64,000 nt of DNA, from the NCBI GenBank assembly GCA_027604505.1, contig JADIIX010000040.1, forward strand, positions 1 to 64,000. The letters are read 5' to 3'. Position numbers and translations under genes: made by a program. The stretch comes from Gonapodya sp. JEL0774. Lineage: Eukaryota; Monoblepharomycota; Monoblepharidomycetes; Monoblepharidales; Gonapodyaceae. The notes below the pieces were generated by a model that saw only the letters and a list, made by a program, of their open reading frames with translations, was not told the DNA's origin and made no database searches. This document shows, piece by piece, positions 28,501-39,642 of the stretch (the first letter of the stretch is position 1; each line of letters opens with the position of its first letter).

Positions 28501-29918
28501 TGGAAACGCTTGTCACGATGACTAACAACAACCCGGCGTCCCTCATCTTCCTCGTCGTCAGACTAACAGCCACCAACGCAAAGACGATATTGAACGTATG
28601 TCCCAGAACCAACCACAAGTCCGCGGGCACTCACGGAATCTGCACCACCCGCACCTTTCTTCCACCTCGATGACGCTCCCTTCTTCATCTCCCCATCTGA
28701 GTCTTGCCCACCAGCGCGCTTATCCCCGTCCTCGTCTTCATCCGAATCTTCCTCGGTCTCACTCTCTGACTCGCTCTCCGATTCCGACTCCGAATCTCGG
28801 CCTGCAGGCTTTTTGAGCCACTTGGACGCTGCTGCCGGCTTCTTGGGGGCGGGTTTCGGATCGTCCGACTCGTCACTGCTTTCGTCGGAGGCCTCGTCGT
28901 CGTCACTGCTTTCCGAGTCAGCACCAGCAGATTTTTTGAGCCATTTAGAGGGTACTGCGACCGGTTTATTGGGTGGAGTAGGCTTCTTGACCGCCGCTCC
29001 CTTGTTTACCACCGGATTCTCCTCTTCGCTTTCGCTTTCTGACTCTGTCTCCTCGCTACTGCTAGACTTCCCTCCAGCAGACTTCTTGAGCCACTTGCTT
29101 CGGCCGGCGCTGGGTTTCGCTGTTGAAGGTTCTGGCTTCTTCCCTCCAGAGAGGGCTGGTACGGATTGTTTGCCTGCAGGCTTGGCGGCAGTTGTGCCCT
29201 TCTTGCCAGGGAGAGGTTTGGCGTCCTCCTCAGACGACTCATCGTCATCCGATGATTCGACCTTCTTGGTCCACTTCGAATGAACTGCGGCTGGTTTCAC
29301 TGGAGCGGCGGCTGGTTTAGCGGGTATGGGCTTTGCCGCCGCGGGTTTGCTAGGTTGCGCGGCAGGCTTTTTCGTGAGTTTTACGTCCTCCTCTGATGAT
29401 TCCTCTTCTGAAGACTCCGATTCCACCTTCTTGGCAAACTTTGCAGGAACAACAGCAGGCTTTGCCGGAGTAGCAGCAGGTTTTGCACTAGTAGTCAGTT
29501 TTGAGGGTGCTGCTGATTTTCCAGCAGCTGCAACAGCAGGCTTCTTGGCTTGTGGTGTGGCTCTAGCGGACGGGGTGTCCGAATCCTCATCCTCATCCGA
29601 TTCATCGTCCTCTTCGGACTCCTCCTGCTGCTTCTTTGAAGGCATTGGAGCAGGCTTTTTCGCAGCTGCGGCGGGAGTCGCCACAGGTTTCTTAGCCTGG
29701 AGGAAAGTCTTCTTGGGCGCTTCCTCTTCACTACTCTCCTCACTTTCCTCGCTTTCGTCTGAGTCCGAATCCACCTCCACTGGTTTCTTTTGAGGAGGGG
29801 CTGGTTGTTTCTTGGCGGCGGGGGTGGATGCTTTCACTGCAGGCTTCTTGGGTTGTTCATCCTCAGACGACTCGGACGACTCCTCAGCCTTCGCGACGCG
29901 TGCGGGGCGAGGTGGCAT
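25572..29918 (-). CDS. NIP1: Translation initiation factor eIF3 subunit c (Nip1)
   Basis: Scaffold subunit of eIF3, which joins the 40S subunit and recruits eIF1/eIF5. The conserved core starts in the second exon ([36 protein letters not shown]), then [40 protein letters not shown], the central helical region ([39 protein letters not shown]) and the PCI domain ([20 protein letters not shown], ending near ALQYADK). The C-terminus is an RGG/GGGR tail ending RRNWQQT. The first exon (28640-29918) is unusual: about 425 residues of Lys/Ala/Pro blocks alternating with Ser/Asp/Glu blocks, where the family normally has a short acidic N-terminus. Total is roughly 1,250 residues, against about 850-930 normally. 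Confidence 0.9.
28640..29450 (-). repeat. Degenerate repeats in the eIF3c N-terminus (W/F-L-K-K plus acidic Ser tract)
   Basis: At least six repeats, each with a short motif followed by a Ser/Glu/Asp run, separated by Lys/Pro/Ala linkers. The motifs are [79 protein letters not shown] and [12 protein letters not shown]. The last copy runs across the intron into the acidic segment that normally starts the conserved core, so the array looks like local expansion of a motif present once or twice in other eIF3c proteins. Confidence 0.75.
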
Positions 29919-30307
29919 TATAAGCTTGGAAACCCGATGTACGGAATGAATATGATGTGTAATTCGACTGTCCAGATGTTGTCAACGAACTGAATGGAGA
30001 CCAGAGAGCGGGCGAGTAGCAGTTCCGATTCAGCACGCGGTTCGAGCCTCGGTTTGGCCCGCAGTCAACAATAAAACAGAGGCTTCTCACTTAGATTGTC
30101 GTCAAACTTGATGGATCCCGATGCCCTTGTTCGACACTCTGGCTGATCTGTGTGTATTTGGGTCTGTGCAGAATAAAATGAAGTGCGCAAACACCACCTA
30201 AGAGCGACTAAAGTCATACCAACAATCTTGTGCGAACCCTTTTTCGGAAATTTTGCTCAGTCCTTTCTCGCTGAATTATAATACTGAGTCGCTCCCAAGC
30301 CTCTCAC
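29919..30307. promoter_or_regulatory. Region between eIF3c start and transposase start; left flank of the mobile block
   Basis: 389 bp without a coding frame. The part next to 29918 should be the eIF3c leader and promoter; the part next to 30308 should include the left end of the transposon. I could not define a terminal inverted repeat or a target duplication by eye. A T-rich motif TTTTGCTCAGTC lies at 30251-30262 and resembles motifs at the right side of the block. An AT-rich TTATAATACTGAG lies 30-40 bp before the transposase ATG and could act as its core promoter. Confidence 0.4.
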
Positions 30308-31411
30308 ATGAGACAAAACGAAATGCAAAAGACCGCTAAAGCGTGCGCTCACCTACAAACTGTCGTTGGAGTTACTCCGTATGAGCTTGCTGCAGCATAC
30401 GACGTACATCTCAGCACCATCTATAGTTGGTTGGAGAGGGCGCGTGGTAGCCCTGCACCCACATACGGTCCTCCGAATCGAAGTGGTCGAAGGACCAAAT
30501 GCAATCCAGAAATAGAGGCCTTTGTATGTGACTGGATGGTTGCCGATGCAGCCCGAACGCAACGGGAAGCCGCCACGATGGTGCTCGAGCGGTTTCATGT
30601 CTCGGTATCACAGCAAACCATTTCAAACATCCTGAAAAGAAACTCGGTGACAAGGAAAAAACTATCCACCGTGTACTCAGAGCAAGCTGGCCGCGAAGAG
30701 GAAGTGCTTACCTACAAACGTGAAATGTCAGCTGTCCACCACGAAATGTGGATGGCTATGGATGAAAGTGGTTTCAAACTTAATGAGGTCCCCCACTACG
30801 GCTACTCGAAGCGGGGAACACGTGCCACTGAAAGAAAACCAAACTGTTTCTCCGCAAATTACAGTCTTCTCTTGACATTGCGGTGGACACGTAATTATTA
30901 CGCCCCAGTGGCAATGGAAACCACAGATAAGGCGTTAGCGCGCGCCGCTAGACACTTATTGGATCCACTACCGGAATCACCAGTTGTTTGTTGGTCACTT
31001 GTTAAAGGTTCGGTAAATGCGGTTGTGTTTCAAGAATACTTGGCAAAGGGTATTGGACGCAGTGTAGGCGTTCAGCCTGCACTTGCTCTTGACAACGCAA
31101 GGATACATCGAGCAACAAAAGCCTGCCTCGAAAATGGAATACCAACAATCTCGGAAACGGCTGCAGCAATAAACCTAAATCTGAAATATTTGCCTCCTTA
31201 TTGTCCATTTCTTAATCCAGTGGAACACGCATTTAAGCTTATTAAAAACGATTTTGTTCGCCGGGCTCGTCCGCGTACAGAAGCACAACTGCGGGCAGCA
31301 ATTTCAAAAGGCATACAATCGCTGACATCTACCAAGGTCAATAGACTTTTTGAGCACTGTTTCTTACGTTCAAAAATGCCAGTGATTACGTCGGGCAACA
31401 ACAATTCATAA
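30308..31411 (+). CDS. IS630/Tc1-mariner superfamily DDE transposase
   Basis: Intronless 367-residue cut-and-paste transposase. An N-terminal helix-turn-helix reads TPYELAAAYDVHLSTIYSWL, followed by GPPNRSGRRTK and a second HTH region (TQREAATMVLERFHVSVSQQ, ISNILKRNSV). Catalytic residues are D152 (MAMDESGF), D262 (LALDNARIHRA) and E306 (LPPYCPFLNPVEHAF). Motif wording matches the DDE endonuclease domain of IS630-like and Tc1-like elements. The spacing between the second Asp and the Glu is 43 residues by my count, longer than the classic 34, because of an extra stretch after ENGIP. The frame is complete with no stop or frameshift, so the protein may be active. It lies 117 bp upstream of the Fanzor start codon on the same strand. 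Confidence 0.88.
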   Translation: MRQNEMQKTAKACAHLQTVVGVTPYELAAAYDVHLSTIYSWLERARGSPAPTYGPPNRSGRRTKCNPEIEAFVCDWMVADAARTQREAATMVLERFHVSVSQQTISNILKRNSVTRKKLSTVYSEQAGREEEVLTYKREMSAVHHEMWMAMDESGFKLNEVPHYGYSKRGTRATERKPNCFSANYSLLLTLRWTRNYYAPVAMETTDKALARAARHLLDPLPESPVVCWSLVKGSVNAVVFQEYLAKGIGRSVGVQPALALDNARIHRATKACLENGIPTISETAAAINLNLKYLPPYCPFLNPVEHAFKLIKNDFVRRARPRTEAQLRAAISKGIQSLTSTKVNRLFEHCFLRSKMPVITSGNNNS

Positions 31412-31528
31412 TTGAGCAGACTGTGATCTTGAAAACTGATTGCTTTTGCGAAGGTGTCTGCGCCACACTTTTGGACATCAAAGAGCCCTCTTCTGGCCAT
31501 TGTTTTCGAACATCCCTCTTCTTTTCCA

Positions 31529-34500
31529 ATGGGGTGGCCCCGTCTGGTGGTAGACCTCCACCAGAAGGGCGCCCTGGCCCTCTTTTCGACGCTGGACCAA
31601 ACTGCATTCGCGGACCTTGTCCATGACGCAGCTCTACAGCGCGGACTTCCTCCCCAGACTCAAGCCGTTGGCTACGTCGATGCCTCCCCCCTTATCTACC
31701 GCCTTGCAGCGACTGCAATGGTAGCAGGAACACTGGAGGTTTGGACGGGACTGTTTCACCTTGGCGAGAACTTCACTGTGGAGGTCAAGGACCACATAGT
31801 TGATCGTTGGGCAAACCATTACGCTAGCAAACTCTATGACACCATCAACGCGACAGTGCCAATCGATTCTCCACTAATTAACGAGCTCCATGTCTTTGTG
31901 GAACGTCGTGAAGCACGGGGGTTCCACAACAGCAGTGACGTCTCTCAGTCTGGTCGCACTGCATTCCAAAGAGCGAGATCCATAACCAAGAGTGCCTCGA
32001 CTTGGTTGTCTCACATGTTCAAGACACTTTACCATGTACCTCTGTACCGACCCAATGCTGACACTTTGTGTTGTAAGTCATAACCCTTTCCCAAAATCGG
32101 AGTACAATCAAACTCACATGGAGCCAACAACAGGTGACCCACCACCTACTTTGAAGACGACGGTGTCTCATCTTGCCAGGGCCGGCTCTCGGCTTCCGGA
32201 CTGGTTTCTCATACCCGTTGTTCAACGTCTCGCAGTCTTGTCGGGAAAGATTCGGATTCGTATGGTCGAAGGAATTGCCGACGAAGCCGCTGCGGCACAA
32301 GGTACTGCCTGACCTTTTCTTGTTGACCTGACTCGGTGATGTGAACCGCTGTGTATTCCAACAGCTGTGCTGGACATACGACCGGTGGTCAAGTTTGCAC
32401 TATCCTCTGACACAGACTGGCTGGCAGCCGGAGTCGACGGGCGGTTTGATCTGTTTTTTTCACCAACAAGTCCGAGGAATGAGCGTTATCCTGGTCTGGA
32501 TGGCAGACCGTACTGGGTTCGACCTGCCGCGGTGGTGCAGACGCTATTTCCAAACGGGAATCCAAGGGCGTTTGTATTCTGTGGACACTATGCCGGAACA
32601 GATACAAGCCCAAGAAACAAGACGGTGAGATGAGAGCGTCAGTCAGCGGTTCGAAAAAGGACCACTAATCGTCGTTTCTGTGTTGCGTCTTTGTAGAGTC
32701 GAAGAGTCCTTTTCTCGTTTTTCGAACATCTTGCACGGTCCGAAGTACCAACAACTCTTGACGAGTTTCACTCTTATTTGGTTGCCCGTCCCACGTTTGG
32801 CTAGCAGGAGACACGATCTTACCTGCATGCAGACACCGTTGACATAATGGCCGCAAACCGAGAAGAACTCCGACACGTCATTACCCGAATGATCCCCACA
32901 TTAGACGATTTACAAAGTGGTCGCGTCTCCTACCCCTCTTACGCTGACACCATGCAAATGGAAGAGTGGAGATCTGCGAGTAGGTGCAACGAACCATCGC
33001 GGCTGGAGCAGCATATTGCTCAGACCAGACAGGGGTCAACCGGTAGTGACGACATTGTGTCCTGCCGTCCTGGGGTTCTGGCGCTTTGTATCCAATTTTG
33101 CGAGGTACTGTCGTGGCAGATTAAGAATTCAACTGTCACGTTATTCTCACCCATTTGCAACCGCCACCAGAAATCAGGAAGGGACGTGCCCTCATACCTG
33201 AAAGCGCATCTTGGTTCTCGTAACACCCGGTCACCAAGCAATCATCGTACACTCACAAAGAGACAGGTCCTTGACGCTGCTCGTTGTGTGAGAGAGAAGG
33301 TTGCGAGAAGGCGTGCATTGAAACGACTCTCATATCGCACAGAACTTGGAATGCAATGGACATTCGTGAACTTTTGCCGACAGGCGCCTCAGAATGTTTC
33401 CGCAGCAGTCAGCGGGCACATTGCCTCTGCTGATCTCTTGTCTCTTCGCAACGACACACACTTCGGCATGTTTCTGCAGTATTCCATGGACGGAATGACA
33501 CTTGACCATTTTGCAAGCATGTGCAAGGCCGTCCAGATTGCCATTGTGCAGATGTATGCGTATTGGAAGCAACCTCGGGTCACCGCCAACAGTCGAACTT
33601 GGACAGATTGCGTAGCAGACTTGAATAAGTTCTCAGCGATTGCTCCTGCGAGTGATGGCGAAGATGTCGAGATAACATACCCTGAGGCCCAAAATACATT
33701 TGCTGGTGAGTTACTTCAATCGGTTTGACAACCCTCACATCCAATATTCGGTGCTGATACTTGTTTTACATGGTCTACCTGTCTGTTGGCTTTTTCCCAC
33801 CAAGACGTTTCCACGTCGAACACAAAGCGGAAGACTACTCACATCGCCGAAGGAGACCACGAACAAGTGGACAAGAAGCGGAAGCGAAACGCAACTAAGC
33901 TTACAGAAGACGAGATCAAACGCCTGTACATGCTAGTGACAATCCCGATGACTACCTTGGACGAGCTTCTCTGTCTCCCAGACACTCTCCGGCGACTCAT
34001 TGTGGATGGGCTTATCCCGGTCCATCGTAGGCTTGTCAACGCCGCCCGTATTGGATGCACATCCACCCTACTCGTGGATTTGAGCATTGGCAGAGGCTCT
34101 TTTATCACTGGCAGTGATCTTCAAAAGTTATTTGTTGACATGTACAGTGAAACAGCAAAGGAGGAGATGTTGACGAGCATGGCAATTGACAAGCCAATAC
34201 AGCAGTTTGGCAAACATTTCGCAGGCGCTGTCATCGGCGCATGCAAACGTGCACTTCCACGATTGAGCAAGGTATGTATTCTGTTATTTTGGTGAAACCT
34301 TTTCTCCGCGCCTGTTTATGTTGTTTCTGGATTTCAGCTGTGGTTACGTGCTGAAATCCAGAAACAAGTGGCTGGGACATCTGTTAGGACCGATATCGTC
34401 AGAGGGCTCATAGTGCTTCTCAACCGTGTCATTGCCGGTTTTCCTGGAGACTGGAGGAGTGCCCTACAAGGGCAACTGAATGACGCTGATGATCGATTGG

Positions 34501-36981
34501 CAGAAGGCAACGACGACAACGATTTCAACAATGGTGACACTGTGGATATTGCCGTGGACGGAGAAGACGAGTCTGACATTGAGGAGGCACGCAATGCCCT
34601 GCTGCAAGAATTGGCAGCAAAGAAAGATTTTACGACTGATGCGACACGCCTGAAGAGTCGGTTTGAACGGCTTTTTTCTGGCAAGCGGCTAACCCCAGCC
34701 GAATTATCATTCCGAAACACTTTCAACATTGATCTTGTGAGAGGGAACTCGACAAAGGCTTGGATCGCCGAAATGCGCCGGCGATTCTTACACCCAACCC
34801 TCCTTCGAAGTGGACTGTATCCAACAGACGGTGGACCGACTGATATGGGCAAGGTTGTCACGGATTCCACAATCGGCTGGGTGTTGCAGTTTGTCTATGA
34901 CATCGATCAGTTTGTTGTGCAGAGCAACCCCGATTCACCACGTGGCATTCCCCAACTCTTATGCCCTCAACCGTCCTTTTCAGGTGGCTTTGTTTCCGAG
35001 ACAGCGACCACTTTCTCAGCCATTGTTTGTGAAGCCATCCAAATTGCTGTAAAAGCTCGAGACAATGGCGACACTGTGGTGAACGGCGTTGACGTTCCGT
35101 CAGACACGTACAAACTGATTGTCGCACACGTCGAATCACGCATAGCGTCTGCTATTGCTTTGGGTTATGAGGCGATGGGGCTTGACGAACCTGCCGTCAA
35201 TCAGACTCTCTCGGAAAGGGTTGAGACTTACAATGCATTCCGCTCCAAGTGGCTCTCAGCAGACCCAACCGATCCGACTGGGTTATACAGATCCCTGCAG
35301 ATGGGTTCTGACAGTAATCCTATGTTGCACCCCATGCTGATCCCGAACATCATCCAGAAAAGGGGTAATATATCCTGTTCTATCAGTGTTTACACACCAG
35401 CGCAGCCATTCCTCTTTTTTACTTTTATGCCCGGTGCGGCAACATATTTCGGAGAGCGCTGGCGTCGCGGACAGCATTTGTGGTTCAAGCACAGCTTTGC
35501 AACGGATGGACTCAATGTTCGGCTACAGGCCTTTGATCTCAACAGTTACACGTCACGGAAGAACGCTGGATATCCGGTTGGAGGGAACAATCGGTCACGC
35601 AAATCCCGCTTTACGGTGAATGATGTCTCTGGTTTTGACTTCCTTTCACTTTGATCTCACTTAGTCCTCAAAAGTCTCGTCCGGCCGATGCGTTTCTCTA
35701 TGGCATCGGTCTGCGTCCACCCAATGCCAGCTGCCGTCCAGGAACCTTGCGCAAAAGCCCACAGAGCCCAAACATCGTACCCGATCGTCCTTTTGGCACG
35801 ATTCCGCCACAAGACGACAAGATATTCATGGGCCCCGGTACCTCTGGCACGAGACTTTTCGGGAAGGGGCACCAGTACGTGAAGTCCAAAGGCATCTGCT
35901 ACCTATCGAAGGTGCCGGAATGGTGTCACGTTGGCAATCAAGAGTATCTCGAAGCCGCAGTCAGGGGCCGTCATGTTTATGCATTAGATCTTGGTGAGCT
36001 CGGTTAACATATTTGAGTCTGTTTGTGAGAACGATGACGATCCATTATTTCGCAGGACGAAAAAGCATTGCATATGGACAATTTGCAACATTGGAAATCA
36101 CAGCAAATGGGATTGTTCCCAAGTCCATTCCGGTCGACATTTCGTCTTCATTCAAGGACAAAATCAGTGGTCAAACGGCGGGGATGAATTCTGCCAACAC
36201 AGACATCCAGAACCAGATCAAGGACGCTGTTGTTGAGCTTTCACGCGCAAGTGCCAGAACTCTAGACGACACACGGTACAGTGATTTTACTGCGTCTGCC
36301 CAAGTTCATGGCTCGGTTGTACTCGAGCACAACTGCAGCCCCACACAACTCGGGTTTCGGGACAACCAGCATCGTCAGAACCAGAGATTTTGGTTGGGCG
36401 AGGTCAACCGTGTCCTCGCCTTGGACGATGCCTCACACATACAGGACCGGGTGGATCAAGTGCGAAAGGATTTTGACGGGCCTTGGACTGATGCAGTAGA
36501 GGCAATGATACGGACCAAAGTGACAATGGATCTCATTGCACACCCAGAGGTCAACGCTCCTATTCTGATCATAGGAGATGCACCATTTGCTCCACAGCAA
36601 CGGGGGCACCGAGGTGGCACAATTGGGTGCGCCAAGAAGTTCATTCAAATGATGACACGATTCTTTTTCGTTGTCGTCGTAGACGAGTATATGACGTCAA
36701 AGGTAAGTTTTCTCTTCTGAGCATTACTTCCAATCTGCAAAAGTCTGAAACTTTGTGCATGTCAGACATGTCCGTGTTGTCTTAACAGGCTCACACCAAA
36801 CCCACTCTACCCCAACGACATTCGCCATTGGAAATGTAGAATGTGCCAACACACCAACGGCGTCAGTCCACTTGTTGTCAACAAGGATTCAAGCGCTTCT
36901 CTTTGCTTCATCCGCATCTTTGTGTCAGTAATGTTGACTGGGTCAATACCGTCGGCATTTAAGCGCCCTGACACATCATGA
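31529..36981 (+). CDS. Fanzor-type (TnpB-related) RNA-guided RuvC nuclease, 1,614 residues, ten exons
   Basis: Eukaryotic relative of TnpB/Cas12, predicted to be an omegaRNA-guided DNA endonuclease. Exons by splice consensus and matching phase: 31529-32072, 32134-32301, 32365-32624, 32697-32744, 32808-33705, 33805-34271, 34338-35615, 35675-35993, 36056-36702 and 36766-36981. The RuvC core is C-terminal: RuvC-I Asp about D1326 (YALDLGRKSIAYGQ); a glycine near 1501 (LIIGDAPFAP) where TnpB carries its Glu; DEYMTSK with E1538, the probable relocated Glu; zinc ribbon C1545/C1548 (TCPCC) and C1567/C1570 (WKCRMC); RuvC-III D1584 (VVNKDSSAS), followed by the family-like tail GSIPSAFKRP. The FATDGLNVRLQAFDL segment before RuvC is also Fanzor-like. 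The N-terminal 1,280 residues are unrecognised and include an acidic stretch and a basic KKRKRN segment. Family call is firm from the C-terminus; the start codon and exons 1-6 are less certain. Confidence 0.85.
34321..34367. repeat. Perfect 18-bp inverted repeat across a Fanzor 3' splice site
   Basis: The arms are 34321-34338 (TTGTTTCTGGATTTCAGC) and 34350-34367 (GCTGAAATCCAGAAACAA), exact reverse complements, with an 11-base loop. The left arm contains the polypyrimidine-like tract and the AG acceptor of the sixth intron; the right arm is coding sequence of the next exon (ten codons downstream of the junction). In pre-mRNA this would fold into a strong hairpin that buries the acceptor. It could be a splicing switch, a structural RNA element, or the trace of an imprecise small insertion. 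Confidence 0.9.
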
Positions 36982-37251
36982 AATCACCCGTACAACATAT
37001 ACGGTTTCTACGGTAAGTTTTTTTTGAGCACTGGACTGTGAGTGTCTGACTTAACATATTTTTCTGGTCTGCTGGGGACTTTTTTGCTTGGTCAATTTTG
37101 CTGGGTTGTTTTTGCTCGGTCGATGACAAAACACCCCTTTTTGGGATTCTCATGTAAATACTTGTTTAGCTGTAGATAAGGCAGTGCACACAAATAAAGG
37201 GGCGGGGCGCCTCAAGAGAAAAGTGGCCAAGCGTAACTTATCGCCTAACGA
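36982..37251 (+). ncRNA. Candidate omegaRNA region / right end of the mobile block and IMP3 leader
   Basis: Fanzor and TnpB guide RNAs are normally encoded at or just past the 3' end of the nuclease gene, overlapping the element end, so this flank is the expected place. It holds a small hairpin directly after the stop codon (CCGTA at 36988-36992 pairing with TACGG at 37000-37004, and a second TACGG at 37009-37013), a T8 run, and three T-rich imperfect repeats at 37081-37122. The last part, with CACACAAATAAAGGGGCGGGG, is probably the IMP3 5' flank. The RNA itself is inferred from position only. Confidence 0.35.
37081..37122 (+). repeat. Three imperfect tandem repeats (TTTTGCTNGGT) near the right end of the mobile block
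   Basis: Copies read TTTTTGCTTGGTC, ATTTTGCTGGGTT and TTTTTGCTCGGTCG, spaced by about 14 bases, with a related TTTTTCTGGTCTGC just upstream. A similar TTTTGCTCAGTC occurs once at 30251-30262, before the transposase, in the same orientation. They could be transposase-binding subterminal repeats or part of the guide-RNA scaffold. Confidence 0.6.
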
Positions 37252-38053
37252 ATGCGTGAGCTCAAGTTCCACGAGAAGAAGCTTCTCAAGAAAGTCGATT
37301 TCCTGCAATGGAAGGGTGACTCCACCCTGAGGGAAGCGCAGGTGATGCGTCGGTATCATCTACAAAGGAGAGACGACTATTTGATGTAAGTCGAGCTTCT
37401 TCTTTGCGGAGCTTCCTGCCCCCAGCATAGCGACGACCAAGCTAACTGTTTTTTGTCACCGTTATTGGGTACCCAGGTACAACAAGCTTTGCGGACAGAT
37501 TCGCAAGCTCGCCAACCGGATATCACTTCTTGACCCACGCGATCCATTCCGTGCGGAACGAGCGGACGCGCTATTGGAGAAAATATACCAGATGGGCCTC
37601 ATCACATCCGCAAAGAAGGGGTTGAGTGAAGCTGATAAGGTCACAGTGTCCGCGTTCTGCAGGTATGTGTTGTAGGTTATGAGTCGCTGCGACTATTGCA
37701 CTCAGAAACCAGTCGATGGTCGTAGGCGGCGTCTGCCTCTCGTTCTATGTAGATTGAAAATGGCGGAAACGGTGAAACAGGCGGTCACTCTCGTGGAGCA
37801 GGGTCACGTTCGGGTGGGGCCCGAAACTGTAACGGATCCAGCGTACCTCGTAACGCGGACCATGGAGGACTTTGTGACGTGGGTGGACACTAGCAAAATT
37901 AAGAGGAAGGTCGCGACGTATAACGATCAGGTAAACTGCTGTTAGTGTCTGGTTGTGCTTGTCTCTCACTGCTCACATTTGTCCTCCTACCGCCACGTCA
38001 CCCCCACCAATCCTACCTAAACCTTACAGCTCGATGATTACGAGCTTATGTAG
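37252..38053 (+). CDS. IMP3: U3 snoRNP protein IMP3 (S4 domain)
   Basis: Small nucleolar protein that binds U3 snoRNA and helps it pair with pre-rRNA in the small-subunit processome. The ATG at 37252 opens [20 protein letters not shown], the family N-terminus. The second exon follows from [20 protein letters not shown] to TVSAFCR; the third exon starts [14 protein letters not shown] and carries the S4 RNA-binding loop ([20 protein letters not shown], then [20 protein letters not shown]). A tiny last exon encodes LDDYELM. Four exons, with introns at about 37384-37476, 37663-37725 and 37930-38029. Its 5' end faces the mobile block, and the next gene upstream beyond that block is the divergent eIF3c. 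Confidence 0.95.
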
Positions 38054-38308
38054 GAGGCAACACCTGCATATTGCTCTTCGGCTGCGATTTGCATTCGCAT
38101 TATTGACCCTGATTCTTCGATCATGCACCATTCAGAACATTCAGATTGACATACCTTTTCTGTACAATAATTGTAGTTAGGCTCTATGTTGCATTATCAG
38201 AGATTATTTTCGAGTTGGGGGGTTTCCGAGAATTCCACCCTTCGACTGCAGCTGCTGCATTTGCCATCGGTGCTTGCCATCAGTAGTGGTTGCAACTGCC
38301 CAACGACA

Positions 38309-39642
38309 ATGCTCCGATTCGTTGCAATCAGCAATCCTGCTCTTCGTTCCTTGCGATCATCTCGTGCTGTTTTTGCATCCTGTGCCCATGCCTATCGTCC
38401 ATCTTCGGCGGATTGTCCTCGACGGGCCGCTGCACCCCGTAACCCGATCCCCCACAGATTCGAGTCTCACAGCACGAATGGACCGATATATCCTCATATT
38501 CCACTCGCCCCGATGCTGATGGCTCGTAACATTCGATGGTTATCGAGCGCCCGACCTCCTGCCGCTCTTCCACCAGCTATCCAACCAGACGCACCCGGCA
38601 AGATTACTCCCTCCAGTCCAGCGATCCCAGAGCTCGTTAATTCGAGTTCCTACCTTTCCCCCGGCGAAGCAACCAAGTATCTCCTGCAGTCCTCGGTCGC
38701 CAAGTGCGCGCGAAGCCCCACCACCATATTCGTCGCTTCGTTTTTGGGAGGTGCGTACCTTTCTTTTGGTGGACTCTTATCTTTGTCAGTGGCGGGCGGC
38801 TCGGCGGGCATCCTGCCGGCTGGGATCGTTTCTTTGTTGGCGGGCATTACATTTCCAGTCGGATTGTCCGTGAGTCCTTCACGTTCGCCCATCTGCGGAG
38901 CGAAAACTTGCATACACTTCACCGTCAATCGATTACCAGATGATCATCTTCACTGGCACTGATCTACTTACCGGGAACATGATGTATGGCACTGTACCCT
39001 TCATGAACCTCAACGCAAAATCTGGTCAAGACCACCAGTCTGCCGTGTCGTCATTGACGAAGATCCTCTCAGTTTCGTTCTTGGGGAATCTCGCGGGTAG
39101 TGGGCTCATGGCACTCACTCTTGGCGCGTTTGGCGGCGTGGCGGAAAACGCCGCGGTGGCTGGTTGGGTGATAGCGCTCGCCAAAAAGAAGTGCGCGTTG
39201 CCATTTATGACTGCCTTTGTTAGGGGCATTGGTGCTAACTGGGTGTGTGACGCGCAAATTTGACTTATCGAACTGCCCAGGAAACTCATGTTGCGCGGGT
39301 ACCTCCTCCTTCCACACTGTCCAGCTCGTCTGCCTTGCTGTTTACATGTCTATGTGCTCTCGAACAGCCGGCGGTAAAATTGCCTCTCTTTGGCTCCCCA
39401 TAACTACCTTCGTTGCTCTTGGCTTCGAGCACAGTGTTGCAAACATGTTCACGATCCCGCTAGGAATGTACCTTCTTTCGGGAACCCCCAACGCACTTGG
39501 TGCGATGGATTTTCTGGGGAATTTGTTACCTGTGGTGATGGGCAACTTCGTGGGGGCTGCAGTGTTTGTGAGTGCGGCGCAATGGTACTTGGCTTTCGGG
39601 TTGCGGAGAGGAATTTTTGAAGATAAATCTAAGCATGACTGA
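38309..39642 (+). CDS. Formate/nitrite transporter family protein with a mitochondrial-type presequence
   Basis: FNT channels (FocA/NirC-like, six-helix pentamers) move formate, nitrite, lactate or hydrosulfide. The core starts YLSPGEATKYLLQSSVAKCA, then helix 1 (TTIFVASFLGGAYLSFGGLL), SLLAGITFPVGLS, and across an intron MIIFTGTDLLTGNMMYGTVP, a family signature, followed by FLGNLAGSGLMALTL, FVRGIGANW, and after a second intron LVCLAVYMSMCSRTAGGKIA, FEHSVANMFTIPLGM and NLLPVVMGNFVGAAVFV. The first in-frame ATG (38309) gives an extra N-terminal segment of over 100 residues, rich in Arg, Ser and Ala with few acidic residues, including MLRFVAISNPALRSLRSSRA and a possible cleavage site near RWLSSA. 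That suggests import into mitochondria, which is inference. Confidence 0.85.

Follow-up and report, generated by a model that had tools for sequence, protein, structure and literature searches.

A likely DNA transposon of the fungus Gonapodya sp. JEL0774 that pairs a mariner-type transposase with a divergent Fanzor-type nuclease

Findings

In the present study, we analysed a stretch of 64,000 nucleotides (the window) of contig C40 in the genome assembly (25 Mb, 381 contigs) of Gonapodya sp. JEL0774, a chytrid-like water fungus of the Monoblepharidomycetes. We found two neighbouring plus-strand genes between repeated ends (30209-37174; 6,966 bp including both flanking TAs), which in our judgement probably make up a two-gene DNA transposon: an IS630/Tc1-mariner-type transposase and, as cargo, a divergent, very large nuclease of the Fanzor type, which is related to CRISPR Cas12. 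Both genes have open frames, the ends recur elsewhere in the genome and border on TA, and the C-terminal part of the nuclease has RuvC-zinc-ribbon homology and the catalytic residues. The two genes would move together and would be expressed. The original prediction, made from the letters of the window, described the nuclease gene and missed the transposon and its transposase.

Transposase and ends of the element

The element outside the nuclease exons consists of the following parts.

30209..30210, no strand: left-boundary TA, a target-site duplication; the reading C, TA, AAGTCATACC occurs at C40, C166 and C46, with flanks that differ
30211..30307, plus strand: left end of the transposon, recurring at the ends of C46 and C166
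30308..31411, plus strand: IS630/Tc1-mariner-type DDE transposase, 367 amino acid residues, without internal stop
36982..37172, plus strand: 3' stretch up to the right end, by its position the expected site of an omega/guide RNA (candidate)
37098..37172, plus strand: right end of the transposon, recurring at the ends of C263 (37098-37174) and C168 (37099-37175)
37173..37174, no strand: TA at the right boundary, target-site duplication; CTG followed by TA at C40, C168 and C263, with flanks that differ

The transposase matched the model NF033545 with 111.7 bits (cut-off 100) and PF13358 (DDE_3) with 57.6 bits (cut-off 28.6), and its triad, picked by eye, is spaced D-109-D-43-E. Besides the end of C166, the genome contains only diverged relatives of it (L011-L021 and L023; stretches of 29-52% identity, several with stops).

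The left end was found again at the end of C166 (30208-30339, 98% identical) and at the end of C46 (30207-30283, identical), and a genome DNA search found the 77 boundary bases of the right end at the ends of C263 and C168. TA was present at all three left and all three right junctions. The base outside the TA was C at each left junction and G, G and T at the right ones; thus, the target resembles CTAG, and TA within CTAG is a reported IS630 preference (cited in PMC2170065).

Several observations tell against such a composite element or limit the case for it. A second copy of the interior was found neither in DNA searches with 30700-34300 and 35650-37300 (outside the last 77 bases) nor in protein searches of the assembly with 34296-35654 and the C-terminus, and the other copies may lack both genes. 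The other contigs end 77-132 bases inside the element ends, which gene-less short copies would also fit; the 77 bases may be the overlap length of the assembler. As terminal inverted repeats the two ends are weak: they resemble each other at 17 of 40 positions, a likeness reached by 65 of 5,000 random 40-mer pairs, and none of the 18 inverted repeats found pairs them. Both sides of one insertion are visible at C40 only, and no empty site was found: the sequences next to the other copies did not combine into one. The nuclease might accordingly be a gene of the host or of another element, with mariner pieces merely flanking it, a reading to which the restriction of the repeats to the two ends and the missing second interior would lend themselves. 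We regard it as quite unlikely, because the recurring ends bracket the two genes closely, the left one directly ahead of the transposase and the right one directly after the nuclease, each with its TA, and only 117 nt separate the genes.

Exons and introns of the nuclease gene

By a splice-site reading made independently of the original prediction, the nuclease gene was assembled from ten exons.

31529..32072, plus strand: exon 1, by splice reading and frame score
32134..32301, plus strand: exon 2, by splice reading and frame score
32365..32624, plus strand: exon 3, by splice reading and frame score; the GenBank model has its first part only
32697..32744, plus strand: exon 4, an uncertain exon that the GenBank model does not have
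32802..32804, plus strand: in-frame TAG, spliced out only if intron 4 (32745-32807) is real
32808..33705, plus strand: exon 5, by splice reading and frame score; one stretch is absent from the GenBank model
33805..34271, plus strand: exon 6, by splice reading and frame score
34338..35615, plus strand: exon 7, with the WED-like motif FKHSFATDGLNV near its end, at residue 1178
35675..35993, plus strand: exon 8, with RuvC-I and catalytic D1326 (LDLG)
36056..36702, plus strand: exon 9, with RuvC-II and catalytic E1538 (VDEYMTSK)
36766..36981, plus strand: exon 10, with the C4 zinc ribbon (CPCC..CRMC), RuvC-III D1584 (NKD) and the stop; matches PF07282 once spliced

The exons (31529-36981) have compatible phases throughout and add up to 4,845 nt, that is, 1,614 codons and a stop, which reproduced the number of exons and codons proposed originally. 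All nine introns are of the GT-AG type and 59-99 nt long. When codon scores were derived from long frames elsewhere within the window (4,582 codons), the chosen frame was the best of three in every one of the ten exons, with near ties in exon 4 (48 nt; -0.03 versus -0.08) and exon 10 (-0.267 versus -0.274). The in-frame scores of the nine introns ranged from -0.225 to -1.224, intron 4 being the least negative.

That the ten exons form a single Fanzor of 1,614 residues is not proven, because the continuity depends on two weak introns, 4 and 7. Intron 7 relies on a poor acceptor (CAAAAG at 35674), and the GenBank model uses the identical joint. As to intron 4, its length is a multiple of three, its sole role is to remove the TAG at 32802-32804, and its score lies above that of exon 10. 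If this stop were used, a protein of 359 residues would result from 31529, and downstream of it, from exon 5 at the earliest, another gene would encode a Fanzor-type nuclease of more ordinary length. Such a pair would agree with the usual size of Fz1 proteins, mostly 600-700 residues (PMC11423790), with the Fanzor-like profile signal, which starts only at residue 1315, and with the position of the WED-like motif at 1178. Against it, intron 4 scores below exons 1-9, and the GenBank model also closes an intron there, though from a different donor. We therefore hold two proteins to be possible, on the unlikely side.

The GenBank model (P0001) has exons 6-9 and parts of exons 1-3 and 5 in common with ours. 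It skips exon 4, closes exon 3 early and omits one stretch of exon 5; it also places a 3' splice site at the end of intron 4, with the donor within exon 3. It joins the N-terminus of the transposase to the front of the nuclease and reads the last exon in a different frame, in which the zinc ribbon is lost. We rejected this transposase-nuclease fusion, since it interrupts the open frame of a transposase that scores above its cut-off, and since the zinc ribbon is lost in it.

The positions of introns 8 and 9 look conserved, because P0002, an unnamed 306-residue protein from ENA, reads into unlike residues where these introns fall. The 3' splice site of intron 6 lies within a perfect inverted repeat (34321-34367; arms of 18 nt, loop of 11 nt), which in RNA could mask this acceptor.

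Homology of the C-terminal part to Fanzor1

On profile comparison, the part from residue 1315 to the C-terminus is homologous to Fanzor1. When spliced, it matched PF07282 (Cas12f1/TnpB zinc-ribbon) with 28.2 bits (cut-off 26.3; E 2.1e-6), whereas exon 10 unspliced gave 11.8 bits. The prokaryotic model NF040570 (guided_TnpB) scored 16.8 bits, below its cut-off of 100.

References were gathered with a profile of three sequences (this protein, P0002 and a canonical Gonapodya Fanzor1, P0003), which recruited 13 further proteins at E <= 1, seven of them with E above 0.01 and one of them that same Gonapodya Fanzor1. No source name among the 13 contains 'Fanzor'; they were called Fanzor1 by DPG, DEFRTS, RD.N and PF07282, the last found at E <= 0.1 in all eight recruits scanned and above the cut-off in three. 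Twelve recruits formed the alignment A3, from which P0011, a piece of 191 residues, was left out. As the gathering profile contained this protein, the references are partly selected for likeness to it, which makes the comparison less than fully independent.

A hidden Markov model (HMM) was then built from 11 sequences of A3, with P0003 and this protein excluded, and run against 2,325 sequences, made up of 2,000 shuffles, 322 window frames, P0002 and two versions of this protein (the whole and its last 484 residues). These two versions headed the ranking (E 3.8e-9 and 2.5e-8; residues 1500-1612), while the best of the 2,000 shuffles reached E 0.51 and one unrelated window frame 0.19; the frames at E 0.0035 and 0.0036 are the gene's own exons 10 and 9. 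P0002, which is without the zinc ribbon, was found at E 0.015. The alignment of this protein to A3 by hhalign (probability 97, E 8e-11, 239 columns) ran from residue 1315 to the last residues, with the Gonapodya Fanzor1 contained in A3 and a pairwise E that is not database-calibrated.

Searches with single sequences gave little. With the whole protein, the sole match was the GenBank entry of Gonapodya sp. JEL0774 itself, and with the C-terminus it was P0002, at 54% identity over 56% of the query (exons 8-9). When the C-terminus was compared as a single sequence with those of PDB entries, six matches at E <= 10 came up, without a Fanzor among them, and none of the 37 stretches of viral contigs that fit a pattern encodes a relative. 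The empty PDB search and the 11.8 bits of the unspliced exon might suggest that the RuvC/zinc-ribbon likeness arose by chance or convergence, in a protein unrelated to Fanzor/TnpB. The profile tests with their shuffled controls contradict this, the Pfam match and, weakly, the predicted fold of P0002 also speak against it, and we give it almost no credence.

The fold was approached through P0002. The solved structures nearest to its predicted fold seem to be Fanzors; the likeness is weak, and the best Foldseek hit had E 0.14, none reaching 0.001. In the list of VIA-align, PpFz (4.7) and GtFz (4.6) stand amid unrelated rows. Further points lessen the value of the model: its Z remains under 8; it was built with Fanzor1 rows in the alignment, which may have steered the fold; and the stretch bearing the first catalytic D has a pLDDT under 50. 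This D seems not to fall on D383 of 8gkh, because the alignment with 8gkh begins by pairing 52 with 365.

Catalytic and signature residues

The motifs YALDLG, IIGDAPFAP, DEYMTSK, CPCC..CRMC and NKD are in place, in the order first described. D1326, E1538 and D1584 match the positions of the Fanzor catalytic triad; D1326 was placed from the profile-profile alignment, as the residue-column alignment is gapped there. E1538 stands six residues ahead of the first zinc cysteine (E YMTSKT C), which is the repositioned glutamate specific to Fanzors; its 'alternative' place is described as a Fanzor mark (PMC10711439). The same spacing from E to CxxC occurs in three of four references inspected, the fourth being without CxxC there.

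Other features depart from Fanzor1. RuvC-I reads DLG, here and in P0002, instead of the DPG found in all 11 references with letters at that site; DPG is 'near exclusively' Fanzor, and D-hydrophobic-G is typical of TnpBs (PMC10711439). DEFRTS reads DEYMTS (R to M). At six columns all 12 references agree. This protein matches them at a G, at the third D and at the R near the C-terminus; at the other three, all beside the third catalytic D, it has K for R, S for N and C for N, so that RD.N...N is replaced by KD.S...C. The pattern D-X(125,275)-[TS][TS]-XX-C4-X(5,50)-RD (PMC3627910) does not fit, since RD is KD, although its spacings, TS and four cysteines all do. The distance from D to E is 212, versus 153-167 in nine references, and the first catalytic D lies at residue 1326, versus 270-579. 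Because DPG and RD were looked for and neither is present, we class the protein as a divergent Fanzor-type variant and not as a canonical Fanzor1.

The three catalytic acidic residues are present, as originally described, and the surroundings of the third are changed. These changes, at columns otherwise identical in 12 references, and the codon score of exon 10, the lowest among the ten, would suit a Fanzor of lost or altered activity, which keeps the fold as a weak nuclease, a binder or a remnant. Nevertheless, the protein retains its three acidic residues, every cysteine of the C4 zinc ribbon and the C-terminal R, and D and E are kept in P0002 at 54% identity, suggesting selection on that part; we are doubtful of such a loss.

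N-terminal part and size

Nothing ahead of residue 1315 matches Fanzor by profile, which is a further point against one large Fanzor. When segments were compared with the full-length Fanzor1 HMM, the C-terminal segment alone matched; a Pfam scan of the N-terminal parts gave no family above cut-off (best E 0.081); and BLASTP self-comparison gave the full-length self match only, with no internal duplication. The WED-like motif (F, then [TS]DG after 3-5 letters, then a small or hydrophobic residue after a further two) occurs once, 148 residues before the first D. It is present in all ten references inspected (which do not include P0004, P0010 and P0011), 38-78 residues before the first D, and somewhere in 68 of 2,000 shuffles. 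For the sequence ahead of about residue 1178 no relative could be detected, and the fold predicted for exon 7 alone is too poor to use (pLDDT 38.9). The front part thus belongs either to an outsized Fanzor or to one of two genes. In sum, the C-terminal homology and the D/E/D triad are supported, and the claim of a complete Fanzor is not borne out as it was put, given DLG, KD.S...C, the unmatched front and the two weak introns.

Possible mechanism

In the two-gene transposon that we favour, the transposase would excise the element and insert it at TA, perhaps with a preference for CTAG. The nuclease would consist of an N-terminal region, a WED-like strand, RuvC, the C4 zinc ribbon and RuvC-III. 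Tested Fanzors are RNA-guided nucleases (PMC10432273), and Fanzor1 RNAs extend about 15 nt beyond the target duplication (PMC10711439); for these reasons we propose, by analogy with TnpB and the tested Fanzors, that the protein may bind an RNA transcribed from the right-end stretch (36982-37174) together with the flank. It could then cut the emptied donor site, and repair would reinstate the element, which would favour its retention. C precedes TA at all three left junctions, and CTA is therefore a candidate target-adjacent motif, although this C may equally be a preference of the transposase itself.

The 3' stretch offers no encouragement to the guide RNA. It folds no better than shuffles (z 0.96 and 0.91), of which 166 of 200 and 164 of 200 were at least as stable, and an Rfam scan of it gave no match above the gathering score; a three-stem shape has been predicted for the Fanzor1 RNAs studied (PMC10711439).

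Neighbourhood and other copies in the genome

Two divergent genes flank the element, a minus-strand gene with its start at 29918 and an S4-domain gene with its start at 37252, 77 bp from the right TA, which we take to be IMP3-like. Exons of a formate/nitrite transporter (PF01226) follow at 38177-39263.

Elsewhere in the genome, an IS607-like pair lies at L001 (C314:3158-3352, minus strand), with a TnpB/Fanzor2-type frame open for 690 amino acids (PF07282, 70.5 bits) and a partner frame that by eye resembles a serine recombinase. Fanzor1-type copies at L002 (C124), L003 (C229) and L005 (C8) are interrupted by introns or stops; all three have NRD.NAARNI, with DEFRTS in L002 and L003 and DKFRTS in L005. 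L002 is GenBank HDU93_001104, that is, P0003. Fanzor2, Fanzor1 and the giant form thus appear to coexist in the Gonapodya genome.

Discussion

The protein breaks two Fanzor signatures while keeping the catalytic residues, which raises the question of how far the active site and the architecture of Fanzors may drift without loss of function. Searches that require DPG or RD would miss such proteins, because both are altered here. An open IS630-type transposase stands alongside, so that a single element would allow one to test why RNA-guided nucleases travel with DDE transposons. If the ten exons are one protein, its 1,614 residues would be about twice the ~800 of the largest Fanzor1s described in PMC10711439. 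More tentatively, and with clearly less confidence than in the transposon itself, we raise the possibility of a separate giant Fanzor-type branch in Monoblepharidomycetes: one protein of 1,614 residues that combines a TnpB-like DLG with the glutamate of Fanzors and an altered RuvC-III. Its N-terminal part, of more than 1,100 residues, would have a role seen in no Fanzor studied so far; an IS630-type transposase would carry and spread it, with CTA as the likely target-adjacent motif. We found no publication on Gonapodya together with Fanzor, nor on Fanzor, introns, Mariner and transposase jointly; the publications that name strain JEL0774 concern another protein, judging by their titles.

Comparison with known systems

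P0002 is 54% identical to the nuclease over exons 8-9, keeps D and E and apparently the intron positions, and unlike our protein is a fragment only. IS607-type TnpB and Fanzor2 proteins belong to the same RuvC-zinc-ribbon superfamily, and TnpB has D-hydrophobic-G as the Gonapodya protein does; they are shorter, the front parts lying outside this comparison. In IS607-type elements, the transposase is a serine recombinase.

The solved Fanzor1s SpuFz1, GtFz1 and PpFz1 (PMC10432273, PMC11423790) share with the Gonapodya protein the repositioned glutamate, the C4 zinc ribbon and D/E/D, and differ from its DLG in having DPG, as well as from its D-to-E distance of 212 and its first D at 1326.

The nearest setting is that described by Bao and Jurka in 2013, in which Fanzor1 proteins lie inside mariner elements with TA duplications (PMC3627910). 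Like the Tc/mariner elements PGv-1 and PUl-1 of that paper, the Gonapodya element has a mariner-like transposase, a Fanzor1-type protein and TA-flanked ends; unlike them, its transposase passes the IS630 model NF033545, and its second gene has nine modelled introns and codes for a protein of up to 1,614 residues, with KD for RD. The mariner setting of Fanzor1 has thus been known since 2013, and what is new here is the size, the IS630-type partner and the altered signatures.

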